DNA from: Citrobacter youngae ATCC 29220
GTDB lineage: Bacteria; Pseudomonadota; Gammaproteobacteria; Enterobacterales; Enterobacteriaceae
NCBI RefSeq assembly: GCF_000155975.1
Contig: NZ_GG730300.1
Location: 743 to 64,742 of the forward strand
Direction of reading: 5' to 3'
DNA length: 64,000 nt
The notes under the pieces are model-generated. The model did not search any database. It was not told the origin of the DNA and was given only the letters and a program-made list of their open reading frames with translations. Both the position numbers and the translations under genes were made by a program. Position 1 is the stretch's first letter. Each line of letters starts with the position of its first letter. Positions 3,278 to 19,664 of the stretch are shown one piece after another.

Positions 3278-3627
3278 AACCCCTCCTGATGAAGGCATTA
3301 TGCGGTAATGTATCGTGGCATGATTTAACTTAATTGCGGCTTTTAGGTACTCATTCACGTTTTTTTGTGCAATTTAAATCTTTTTCATGAAGTCTGGAAT
3401 AACGCTCGCAAACGTATTTATGCGGTGTGGTCGTGGAGAGCGTGTGCTCAAGAATGACCTGAAACGTGAAATATTTTCATTTTTGATTTTTTGTATAAAA
3501 AACAAAGCGATTTATCAAAATCGTTAACGGCGTCAGAAAAACAAATGAAAAAATATCTTGTGTAATTTGCAAATTCTATGGTAACTCTTTAGGCATTCCT
3601 TCGAACAAGATGCAAGAAAATACAAAA
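3278..3627 (+). promoter_or_regulatory. upstream control region of the ilv operon
   Basis: This 350-bp stretch without a gene separates yifB from ilvL. It becomes very AT-rich from about 3470, with runs such as gattttttgtataaaaaac and an IHF-like stretch around 3513-3526 (tatcaaaatcgtta). E. coli ilvP2 is activated by IHF bound to an upstream AT-rich, easily unpaired region, so this is probably the equivalent. From the usual leader length (about 185 nt to the attenuator) the transcript should start near 3597. I could not fix the -35 and -10 boxes with confidence. Confidence 0.55.
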
Positions 3628-3726
3628 ATGACAGCCCTTCTACGAGTGATTAGCCTGGTCGTGATTAGCGTGGTGGTGATTATTATCCCACCGTGCGGGG
3701 CTGCACTTGGACGAGGAAAGGCTTAG
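3628..3726 (+). CDS. ilvL: IlvL, attenuation leader peptide
   Basis: A 32-residue leader peptide, MTALLRVISLVV...GRGKA, containing five Ile, six Val and four Leu codons, many consecutive. Ribosome stalling at these codons when charged tRNAs are short prevents formation of the downstream terminator (3750-3781). It is apparently identical to the E. coli leader as I remember it. It is the first translated element of the ilvXGMEDA transcript. Confidence 0.96.
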   Translation: MTALLRVISLVVISVVVIIIPPCGAALGRGKA

Positions 3727-3749
3727 AAAACAAGCCTTAACGAACTAAG

Positions 3750-3781
3750 ACCCCCGCACCGAAAGGTCCGGGGGTTTTTTT
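3750..3781 (+). terminator. ilvL attenuator (transcription terminator)
   Basis: A GC-rich hairpin, acccccg...cc-GAAA-gg...cgggggt, followed by seven T residues sits 24 bases after the leader stop codon. This is the attenuator that controls read-through into ilvX-ilvG according to Ile, Val and Leu supply. Confidence 0.94.
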
Positions 3782-3811
3782 GACCTTAAAAACAGACATG
3801 TGGAGCAGAAC

Positions 3812-3862
3812 GTGAGCGGTAGCATAAAATTCTGTTTCTCTAGATTTACGGCGGGGATGTAA
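3812..3862 (+). CDS. ilvX: IlvX, 16-residue small protein
   Basis: A 16-codon [19 protein letters not shown], starting with GTG and preceded by TGGAG seven bases upstream. The core KFCFSRF is shared with E. coli IlvX (MNNSTKFCFSRFRTGN), which is made as a small protein. Its stop is two bases before the ilvG ATG, so translational coupling to ilvG is likely. The biochemical function is unknown. The start differs from E. coli (GTG for ATG), and only the C-terminal two thirds are conserved. Confidence 0.75.
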
Positions 3863-16697: not shown

Positions 16698-18179
16698 TTA
16701 ATGAACGTCCAGCGGCCAGTGAACATAGCTTTGCCACTCACTTTCCTGATCGATAAGTTCTTTACCTAGCGGGTGATGTTCCAGCCAGCCTTCAGGCAGC
16801 GTGACCGTCAGGTGCTCATCGCTTGCATCCAGCTGAATTTCCGGCACTAAATCATCGCGGCGGCGGCTGGCGAAAATGATCGCCAGACGTAGCAAACGGC
16901 AAAGGTGCTCCGCGATGCGCGGCGGCACGGCGTTTTGTTGATGGAGTGAGGAGAGATCGACCGGGTTAGTCTGGTTGAGCAACAGCGTGGCTAACAGTTT
17001 TTTCTGCGCTGGCGTGAAACCCGGAAGATCGAGATTGCGCACCAGATAAGCGGCATGCTGTGGCGCCTGTTTAAAATCAACGCTCAGCCCTATTTCATGC
17101 AGCTGACAGGCACTAATTAGCAGTTCACGGCTAATTGTCTCCAGATGCCACTTATTTGCTACCTGATCGAAGAATTTAGCCGCTAAGTTGGCAACACGAT
17201 GCGCTTGCTCTGTATCGACCATAAATCGACGCTGAATATTGCGTAACGTGCGGCTGCGAATATCCTGATCCACCGCCAGATGTAGCATGCCGTAAACCAG
17301 CCCTTCGCGTAATGCGCCGCCAGCGAGGGTCATGCATTGAATATTCAATTCGGTGAAAATGGCGATCAGGATCGCCAGCCCGCTGGGGAAAACCAGCGCG
17401 CGTTCCAGCGTTAATCCTTCAATTTCCAGCTCTTCCAGACGTCCGCAATGAATGGCGCGCTGCTTTAGCTGTTGGAGTTTCGCCAGCGTAATGCGCTCAT
17501 CCATGCCTTGCGCCATCATGATTTCCTGTAACGCCTGGACGGTGCCAGAGGCACCCACGCAGACTTTCCAGCCATGAAAACGCAGTTTGTCCGCGACCGG
17601 GCGCAGCACTTCGCGCGCAGCCTTCTCGGCCTGGTCGAAGTTTTCCTGCGCCAGATTACGATCGGTGAAATACCGTTCCAGCCAGGTGACGCAGCCCATT
17701 GACAGGCTAAACAGGGAGGTGGTTTGCGCGCCGGAGCCGGTAACCAGTTCCGTGCTGGCGCCGCCAATATCAACGACCAGACGCTGATCGGCACCGCCGG
17801 TAGTGTGGGCAACACCCTGATAAATCAGCCGGGCTTCTTCTTCGCCGCTAATAACCTGCACCGGACAGCCGAGGATTTCTTGCGCTTTGGCGATAAATAC
17901 ATCGGCATTGACGGCGATGCGTAACGTTGCCGTGGCGACCACGCGGATTTGCGGGTGAGGAATATCCTGCAGACGTTCAGCAAACAGGCGCAGGCATTGC
18001 CAACCACGCTCCATCGCCTCTGTGGAGAGAACGTAGTCACTATTGAGTCCAGCGGCCAGACGCACTTTGCGTTTAATACGCGTGAGCGTCTGGATGCTTC
18101 CCGCCACCTCGCGTACGACCAGCATATGAAAGCTATTGGAGCCGAGATCGATTGCTGCGTATAGCGAAGTAGAATTCAT
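16698..18179 (-). CDS. gppA: GppA, pppGpp 5'-phosphatase / exopolyphosphatase
   Basis: A 493-residue member of the Ppx/GppA family that hydrolyses pppGpp to ppGpp. The sugar-kinase/actin fold begins with [15 protein letters not shown], the phosphate loop [12 protein letters not shown] is at about 143-154, and a C-terminal HD-like domain contains the motif [12 protein letters not shown] chose the ATG at 18179, with AAGG nine bases upstream and the family start NSTSLY. An ATG at 18188 lies too close to that site. It lies downstream of rhlB on the same strand, with an ERIC element in the gap, so it may be co-transcribed. Confidence 0.95.
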
Positions 18180-18183
18180 ACAC

Positions 18184-18376
18184 TTCATCCTTCAACCTGT
18201 ATCTGTGTTGGCTGCTTTCATTATTAGATTAGGCCCATTCCTGGGCCTAACCCCTACGGGGCTGTTGCAAGCAACGTTCAAATCTGTTCCTGACAGATTT
18301 GTCACCCGAATCACTTACTTTTGTAAGCTCATCGGGATTCGTTTTCTTGCCGCCTTGATACAGGCTGAATGATTTT
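18184..18376. repeat. ERIC (IRU) element with about 80 extra bases
   Basis: The core tcacttacttttgtaagctc and the downstream cttgccgcctt are diagnostic of the enterobacterial repetitive intergenic consensus. The terminal arms ttcaacctgtatc (18191-18203) and gatacaggctgaa (18357-18369) pair as the outer palindrome. Compared with the second copy (near 59760) the left half is 80 bases longer. The extra part, about 18229-18300, consists of four back-to-back perfect hairpins. ERIC elements with an insertion of about 70 bp are known. It lies in the rhlB-gppA gap and would be part of their mRNA. Confidence 0.85.
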
Positions 18377-18395
18377 GTGTATGGCATAACTTTTC

Positions 18396-19664
18396 TTAAC
18401 CTGAACGACGACGATTACGCGGAGCGCCACCGGCACGACGCGGACCATTGCCTGTGCGCGGGCGCGTCAGGCGCAGCGGCTTCGGCAGATCGGTCATCAG
18501 CGCATCCGGATTGTACTTGCTGACCGGAATCGAGTGGCCGATATAGGTCTCGATGGCGGGTAAATTCAGCGCGTATTCTTCGCAGGCCAGGCTGATAGAG
18601 TGACCGCTTGCGCCGGCACGACCGGTACGACCGATGCGGTGAACGTAATCTTCGCAGTCATCCGGCAGGTCATAGTTAAACACGTGCGTTACGGCTGGGA
18701 TATGCAGACCACGCGCGGCGACGTCAGTCGCAACGAGAATGTCGAGATCGCCACGGGTGAACTCATCCAGGATACGCAGGCGTTTTTTCTGCGCCACGTC
18801 ACCGGTCAGCAGACCGACGCGATGACCGTCCGCAGCGAGGCTGCCCCAGATATCTTCACAACGGTGCTTGGTGTTAGCAAAGACGATGGCGCGATCTGGC
18901 CACTCCTCTTCAATCAACGTTTGCAGCAAGCGCATTTTTTCTTCGTTGGAAGGGTAGAAGAGCTCTTCTTTAATACGGTGACCCGTCTTTTGTTCCGGTT
19001 CGACTTCAACGTACTCAGCGTTATTCATCTGTTCGAATGCCAGTTCGCGAACGCGGTAAGAGAGCGTTGCAGAAAACAGCATGTTCAGACGTTGAGTGGT
19101 TGGCGGCATACGACGGAACAGCCAACGGATATCTTTAATAAAGCCCAGATCGTACATACGATCGGCTTCATCCAGTACCACGACCTGAATCGCGCCCAGG
19201 TTAATGTGATTCTGCTTTGCATAGTCGATGAGACGACCGGTCGTGCCGATAAGAATATCGACGCCGCTTTCCAGCACTTTCAGCTGTTTGTCGTAGCCGT
19301 CGCCGCCATAAGCCAGGCCTAATTTCAGGCCGGTGGTCTGTGCCAACGGCTCGGCATCGGCGTGGATCTGCACGGCTAACTCACGCGTCGGCGCCATGAT
19401 TAACGCACGCGGTTGGTTCACCTTGCTATCGGCAATCGCGGGATGAGAGAGAAGATAATGAAACGTTGACGTCAGGAACGCCATCGTTTTTCCGGTACCG
19501 GTTTGCGCCTGCCCTGCAACGTCACGACCTGCCAGCGTTAGCGGCAGCGCGAGAGCCTGAATGGGCGTGCAGTTATAAAACCCTTTATTTTCAAGGGCTT
19601 CTATCACCTTTGGGTGCAGGGCGAAGTCGGAAAACTTCTGTTCTGTTAAATGTGTTTTGCTCAT
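18396..19664 (-). CDS. rhlB: RhlB, DEAD-box RNA helicase of the degradosome
   Basis: A 422-residue DEAD-box helicase that unwinds structured mRNA for RNase E and polynucleotide phosphorylase. The Q motif precedes Walker A AQTGTGKT (53-60). [13 protein letters not shown] is motif II, SAT is motif III and [10 protein letters not shown] is motif VI. The C-terminal tail is Arg/Gly-rich ([12 protein letters not shown]...), as in E. coli. It is divergent from trxA across a 131-bp region. Confidence 0.98.

Follow-up and report, generated by a model that had tools for sequence, protein, structure and literature searches.

An ERIC element between rhlB and gppA carries an RrB-like RNA module, and the repeat may thereby spread CsrA binding sites into ordinary mRNAs

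In a 64,000-nt stretch of the Citrobacter youngae ATCC 29220 genome (contig NZ_GG730300.1, genome size 5.15 Mb; the stretch is hereafter called the window), the gap between rhlB and gppA is filled by an ERIC element with an 80-bp insert of four hairpins. Based on comparisons of orthologous loci and structure-based searches, we propose that this insert is best explained as an RrB/RtT-like RNA module in mobile form, which ERIC elements captured at a fixed internal site. The identification of the element as an ERIC carrying an RrB-like RNA module is well supported and very probably correct, and the fuller reading, namely that through ERIC the rhlB-gppA mRNA has gained an RrB-like module that binds CsrA, is given a probability of about 0.6. 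The locus is composed of the following features.

18396..19664, minus strand: rhlB, the upstream gene, from its open reading frame and tblastn, which finds rhlB ahead of gppA at all 80 related loci
18177..18383, minus strand: ERIC element, terminal repeat to terminal repeat, from its inverted arms, matches of an ERIC HMM and alignment to orthologous ERICs
18304..18356, minus strand: ERIC core with the central hairpin, from the fold and the alignment of orthologous ERICs
18224..18303, minus strand: four-hairpin module (the insert), its sense being the rhlB/gppA strand, from covariance models and its lack in orthologous ERICs
18279..18301, minus strand: hairpin 1, loop CAGGA with GGA at 18288-18290, from sequence and predicted fold
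18264..18275, minus strand: hairpin 2 (GTTGC/GCAAC), loop sequence unconserved in the family, from sequence and family alignment
18251..18261, minus strand: hairpin 3 (CCCC/GGGG), from sequence and family alignment
18229..18250, minus strand: hairpin 4, loop AGGAAT (in the family mostly ANGGAT) with GGA at 18239-18241, from sequence and predicted fold
18177..18193, minus strand: ERIC end giving a Shine-Dalgarno-like GAAGGA (18188-18193) and the likely gppA ATG (18177-18179), paired within the ERIC hairpin in the predicted fold
16698..18188, minus strand: gppA, the downstream gene (longest open reading frame; likely start 18179), from its open reading frame and GppA relatives up to 98% identical

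A preliminary description, made from the letters of the window, had taken the element for a transcribed ERIC with an 80-base insert of four adjacent perfect hairpins, and this holds: the gap measures 207 bp as compared to 127 bp for the insert-free ERIC of C. werkmanii, the hairpins are in place and perfectly paired, and the element lies between rhlB and gppA on the strand of both genes. Terminal inverted repeats (18177-18203 and 18357-18383, 27 nt, 81% complementary), the central ERIC hairpin and the intergenic position identify it as ERIC, and an HMM derived from orthologous gaps matches both of its halves. Along the direction of transcription, the left terminal repeat is followed by the core hairpin, GGGTGA, the module and GCAGCCAAC, and the right terminal repeat closes the element. 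Judged by the E. coli locus L171, gppA likely starts at the ATG 18177-18179. The closest GppA in the named collection, from which the nearest records may be left out, is that of C. werkmanii (98%). Elsewhere in the window, at 3553-3845, the Rfam family Rev39_5p_UTR, named after soft-rot Enterobacteriaceae, is found with 151 bits in this genome.

The same locus in relatives was compared using the best 80 of 219 loci of a GppA scan, all of them named. The gap spans 0-19 bp in 60 of the 80, 125-127 bp (ERIC without insert) in 14 and 82-105 bp (shortened ERIC) in four, with one further locus (L181) having a gap of 464 bp, and Enterobacter sp. 10-1, the sole locus of its kind among the best 80 of 219, has ERIC plus module in a 199-bp gap. 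The aligned gaps reveal one and the same ERIC in two forms, with the module and lacking it; the module is located between GGGTGA and AGCC, and the insert has no counterpart in the orthologous ERICs that lack it. Hence, the insert does not align end to end with ordinary ERIC sequence and precise ERIC pairs with and without it do exist, contrary to the two outcomes that the preliminary description had held to speak against an insertion. Since ERIC occurs at the orthologous site in both forms, the element is common to the genera and the module arrived or left within it; either repeated capture or an exchange among ERIC copies would account for this. Among 17 genomes of the genus, including that of the window, no second module was seen at rhlB-gppA: the flanking pieces match without module in 15 of the 16 others, and the locus of G062 is not among the matches listed. 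As none of the others was seen to carry the module here, nothing shows selection at this locus. In sister genomes without it at rhlB-gppA, ERIC plus module is located about 19 kb away (L066:1501-1578 in G023; same-genus matches in G063 and G068), adjoining glmZ in G023.

The fold of the element, which the preliminary description had named as a check, is more stable than that of shuffled sequences. The ERIC RNA reaches -87 kcal/mol compared to -45.7 (sd 4.0) for shuffles, the whole element thereby beating 200 of 200 dinucleotide shuffles (z -10.2), and the insert alone also folds better than 200 of 200 (z -4.5). In the longer predicted fold the terminal repeats pair, the four hairpins form side arms and the GGAs of hairpins 1 and 4 are unpaired, whereas the 91-nt module folded alone breaks up hairpin 3 differently, which is why this hairpin is the least certain. 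Loop 4 of the window copy carries GGAA, as opposed to the common NGGA.

All four stems covary. In an alignment of 40 distinct, hand-picked modules, produced with MAFFT and unfitted to structure, 98.9% of cells pair and both sides change in 17 of 21 pairs, with 148 double-change cells; shuffles give 41 (sd 5.3) and slid partners 9-21. For 34 modules hand-picked from 57 copies at the same internal ERIC site (site A), both sides change in 11 of 22 pairs, with 60 double-change cells versus 19 (sd 3.4) shuffled and 1-8 slid. This covariation rules out chance stem-loops.

The loops of hairpins 1 and 4 are conserved on changing stems: GGA is kept in loop 1 in 38 of the 40 modules on 14 different inner stems, and in loop 4, likewise in 38 of 40, on 11 different stems. 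Both loops carry it together in 37 of 40 modules, and in 29 of 34 within ERICs. In the 34 site-A copies the entropy is 0.24-0.25 at the GGA positions, 0.31-0.47 in the stems and 1.04-1.56 in loops 2 and 3 as well as at all remaining loop positions. Because GGA copies had served to train the first covariance model (R1), for which only six ERIC inserts were used, a second one (R2; 16 sequences) was built with loops 1 and 4 masked, which still models loop length and GGA-type stems. R2 matches 48 of 143 genomes of the class (E up to 1e-4). The best copy in 29 of these 48 has GGA in loops 1, 2, 3 and 4 in 25, 5, 3 and 21 cases, respectively, and all 42 distinct copies from those loci in 36, 6, 7 and 32. 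We thus discard the notion that the enrichment is an artefact of the search model, as it persists with R2, itself trained on GGA-type copies and modelling loop length. A cruder count of GGA near loops 1/4 gives 54/53 of 57 copies at site A, 12/17 of 25 at a second ERIC site (site B), 22/22 of 29 adjacent to tRNA genes, 8/8 of 9 in rRNA operons and 84/85 of 110 elsewhere. GGA is found in neither loop in 52 of 218 distinct copies, by a mechanical parse that picks the wrong hairpin in some cases; the figures relied on here are those from fixed alignment columns (the sets of 40 and 34 and the R2 sets).

The window module scores 91.5 bits with R1 and 73.9 bits with R2, being one of the six and one of the 16 source sequences, respectively. 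In its own genome, 53 blastn pieces match the 193 bp of the preliminary description at E up to 10, and three ERICs carry the insert at the same site. R1 detects 17 places at E up to 10, namely these three ERICs, three rrn T1-T2 terminator spacers (53.9 bits; one with the 5S gene in view, the other two next to a stretch of N where a contig ends), the ERICs L055 and L056 with a second-site module on the other arm, L051 outside ERIC, and eight weak matches, at least three of them in tRNA spacers. For the T1-T2 spacer downstream of the own 5S gene, the E-value is 9e-12. This spacer matches 3951 of 5426 E. coli genomes, the best match being 97.7% identical and located 51 nt behind 5S. The second-site modules (L055:1501-1570, L056:1501-1569) are related and have no GGA loops. 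Modules at both ERIC sites occur in L114, L118 and others (G042, G022).

Beyond this genome, R1 matches 30 of 60 family genomes including the own (E up to 0.1) and, at E up to 1e-5, 40 of 119 genomes at order level and 57 of 143 at class level, the own again included. Its matches across Gammaproteobacteria include rrn terminator spacers, an RtT region and positions adjoining tRNA and tmRNA genes. The 239 distinct copies classified comprise 57 at site A and 25 at site B of ERIC, nine at other ERIC positions, nine belonging to rRNA operons and 29 with a tRNA gene at most 250 nt away, and the remaining 110 lie elsewhere or are unclassified; these proportions are no census because the loci were taken mostly from the best-scoring matches. 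Rfam annotation places copy L342 84 nt behind tmRNA and L111 in a 23S-5S spacer, and shows L337 to overlap RtT; the own-genome copy L381, found with R2, is itself the Rfam RtT (99.8 bits). Orthologous ERICs without insert at 14 loci, combined with the 57 site-A copies, identify the window element as an ERIC with a long internal insertion of a recurring type, the preliminary description having mentioned the known ERIC insertions of about 70 bp as a possibility, and the R1 and R2 matches establish homology in sequence and structure to the RrB/RtT/tRNA-linked repeat family. No tRNA or rRNA gene is found near the window locus, and owing to its position between rhlB and gppA, outside any tRNA or rRNA operon, the module is called TLR-like and not a TLR (tRNA-linked repeat).

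Direction is a shared property of the copies. ERIC and module point the same way in 90 of the 91 copies with a called ERIC strand, and the tRNA is on the same strand in 26 of the 29 tRNA-adjacent copies, upstream in 21 of these 26. Relative to genes, 90 loci were considered, of which four beside RNA genes were set aside (L052, L066, L072, L079); among the remaining 86, 20 have no two flanking ORFs within 600 bases and 31 are convergent or divergent, leaving 35 co-directional pairs from mechanically called ORFs. Here 25 modules are sense and 10 antisense (p 0.017), as compared to six sense and four antisense for 22 own ERICs without module, a bias that is weak and not significant genome by genome; a looser count without these limits gives 35 to 14. 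Several module copies without ERIC call have near-identical flanks (L094-L097 in G025, L142-L143 in G027). A TwoAYGGAY-like RNA adjoins these modules (51.4 bits in L142, 32.6 in L094), and no rRNA match was found near L094 and L142, the two that were scanned. RU-3 was dismissed as source of the insert, its printed sequence being REP-like in appearance and unlike the module.

The candidate ligand follows from the relatives in rRNA operons. Stenum 2021 reports that the E. coli rrn T1-T2 spacer RNAs RrA, RrB and RrF bind CsrA, that CsrA is the protein most enriched in pull-downs with these RNAs, that the KD of RrB-short and CsrA is about 100 nM, and that changing three GGAs to UUU, two of them in predicted loops, leaves no shift in the tested range (PMC8144298). 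CsrA sites are GGAs in hairpin loops (PMC8144298, PMC4333381), usually paired (PMC4333381). Loops 1 and 4 presumably are the two loops meant by Stenum, as judged from the alignment. In the window module, the GGAs of hairpins 1 and 4 form such a pair of loop GGAs, unpaired in the predicted fold and spaced by 49 nt. CsrA bridges sites tens of nucleotides apart. In view of these properties, the window copy would probably bind CsrA.

Several points count against this reading, namely that the module does not track csrA, that copies without GGA exist, that no other genome of the genus was seen with the module here, that the sense bias relative to genes, itself a point in favour, is weak, that loop 4 of this copy reads GGAA, that the window stays below the cut-off of RF02902, and that the reported phenotypes are modest. 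Modules are carried by 50 of 120 genomes with csrA and seven of 23 without (Fisher p 0.36), and a link between csrA and module presence is rejected as non-significant; four of the seven csrA-lacking carriers are 73-90% complete, G200 is listed at 100%, and G310 was counted as csrA-lacking because it is missing from the 120 listed. The modest phenotypes are alike for deletion and overexpression of the rrn spacer RNAs, 19 other tRNA-linked repeats have low predicted CsrA scores, CsrB binds CsrA far more strongly, probing suggests that one GGA loop forms only with Hfq, and an early claim linking the tyrT repeat to starvation has since been withdrawn, all as given by Stenum (PMC8144298). In eight genomes of the class the module lies within about 1.5 kb of csrA (G202:C54, G222:C167, G230:C18, G277:C64, G312:C1, G313:C30, G318:C256 and G320:C23), seven times downstream, on the same strand and within 0.7 kb. 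This proximity may stem from tRNA genes located behind csrA, an arrangement also present in the own genome (csrA C8:352909, module C8:353916).

From the layout of the GGAs and the gppA start, the following mechanism can be proposed. Upon transcription of rhlB-gppA, the module would fold into the four hairpins, two of which expose loop GGAs 49 nt apart, and a CsrA dimer would bind those of hairpins 1 and 4. The ERIC end would form GAAGGA and the gppA start codon; the GGA that it supplies is located about 50 nt beyond that of hairpin 4, and the gppA leader differs in the five ERIC-free loci compared. The most likely consequence of CsrA binding would be reduced gppA translation or an altered stability of the rhlB-gppA transcript, and the module could slightly titrate CsrA. 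Such an effect of the module on gppA is doubtful.

How do other explanations compare? The hairpins could be pure DNA palindromes without RNA function, perfected through template switching at replication and spread along with ERIC. Template switching alters both arms in a matching way. The perfection of the stems is unusual, at least 79 matches are present in each of G022 and G042, and 51 of the 57 site-A copies are ERIC copies in other loci, many of them from these two genomes. Palindromes leave unexplained, however, why entropy is so low at the GGA of loops 1 and 4 relative to the other loop positions, why tRNA-adjacent copies lie on the strand of the tRNA, and why GGA loops are kept while stems are replaced, as the loop-masked R2 set indicates, which renders this explanation unlikely. 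Alternatively, the insert might serve as recognition site, rich in hairpins and single-stranded, for an enzyme of DNA mobility in transposition of ERIC or the module, compatible with the two recurrent ERIC insertion sites and the nearly uniform orientation. Yet 22 unique own-genome ERICs have no module at these sites, meaning that ERIC spreads without it, and the module also occurs outside ERIC beside rRNA, tRNA and tmRNA genes; we consider such a role very unlikely.

A processing or pausing element, as suggested in the preliminary description, would be a stack cut by RNase III or RNase E, or slowing the polymerase, between rhlB and gppA. Relatives are found in tRNA and rRNA operons, the transcripts of which are processed, and ERICs of Yersinia affect mRNA levels via RNase E (PMC10969869). 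On the other hand, the search at 18150-18450 found no terminator-like or promoter-like site, so that a terminator or promoter was rejected, and a plain structural block needs no conserved loop identity. A specific pausing or processing role is hence not supported and appears improbable, while cleavage of the module by RNase E or RNase III is possible. Taken together, the relatives, the covariation and the conserved GGA loops point to a CsrA-docking RNA instead.

These findings provide the internal insert of ERIC with an identity and link three things that were described apart: long ERICs, tRNA-linked repeats/RtT and the CsrA-binding RrB. In the open-licence literature, outside of which key ERIC papers lie so that an earlier mention is possible, no link of ERIC inserts to tRNA-linked repeats or CsrA was found. 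As a tentative extension, with the odds against it, ERIC could pick up a growth-coupled RNA domain that binds CsrA from rRNA and tRNA operons and deposit copies of it in mRNA leaders and trailers, dozens of times in some genomes. A miniature transposon would then remodel the Csr regulon in a strain-specific manner, and the parent modules next to stable RNA genes across Gammaproteobacteria would together act as a general sponge for CsrA, coupled to growth rate. Since sister species differ in the mobile copies at one and the same locus, the function of the module can be tested directly.

Finally, the module can be placed among known systems. Wilson and Sharp (2006) reportedly described ERIC elements with an internal insertion of about 70 bp; as in the window ERIC, the insert is located at a fixed internal site, whereas here the insert proves to be an RNA module whose relatives are also found outside ERIC. 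For RrA/RrB/RrF, the own T1-T2 spacer aligns with the insert along the full set of hairpins and has GGA in the first and the fourth loop, but the window module, a candidate CsrA binder, resides within the ERIC of a protein operon and not between rrn terminators. Stenum places RrA/RrB/RrF among the tRNA-linked repeats, and the text of that paper never mentions ERIC (PMC8144298). RtT and its relatives are already known (PMC4986893, PMC2965389). The likeness to tRNA-linked repeats and RtT (RF00391) lies in the RtT of the own genome being recovered by R2 and in the R1 match overlapping RtT in L337. In contrast, the window module has no tRNA or rRNA gene upstream, its comparison with RF00391 gave no match at E up to 5 and stayed short of the curated cut-off, and the own tRNA-spacer copies L059-L061 have neither hairpin 1 nor the GGA of hairpin 4.

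AaHKsRNA22 (RF02902) resembles the module in having four hairpins, in their order and in the linkers, but the window reaches 30.0 bits, below the curated cut-off of 39.8, which one sister ERIC copy passes (40.2). TwoAYGGAY RNA (RF01731), predicted to bind CsrA (PMC4333381), shares the GGA-loop hairpins and adjoins the module in L142, but its architecture is another one and the window copy is unmatched at E up to 5. In the E. coli plasmid pH222-1, which has the ybt genes, an ERIC with the module inserted at this very site occupies the ybtA-ybtP gap, measuring 203 bp between terminal repeats (L045:1453-1655). The Salmonella plasmid pESI has a 201-bp insertion in the ybtA leader, a putative counterpart of the pH222-1 copy, that is called different from ERIC (PMC11225919). 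The Yersinia repeat RU-2/YPAL (PMC2759123) contains two palindromes with NGGAT loops (ccaaggatgg and tacatggatgta), and therefore more than one miniature element may carry hairpins of the CsrA type.
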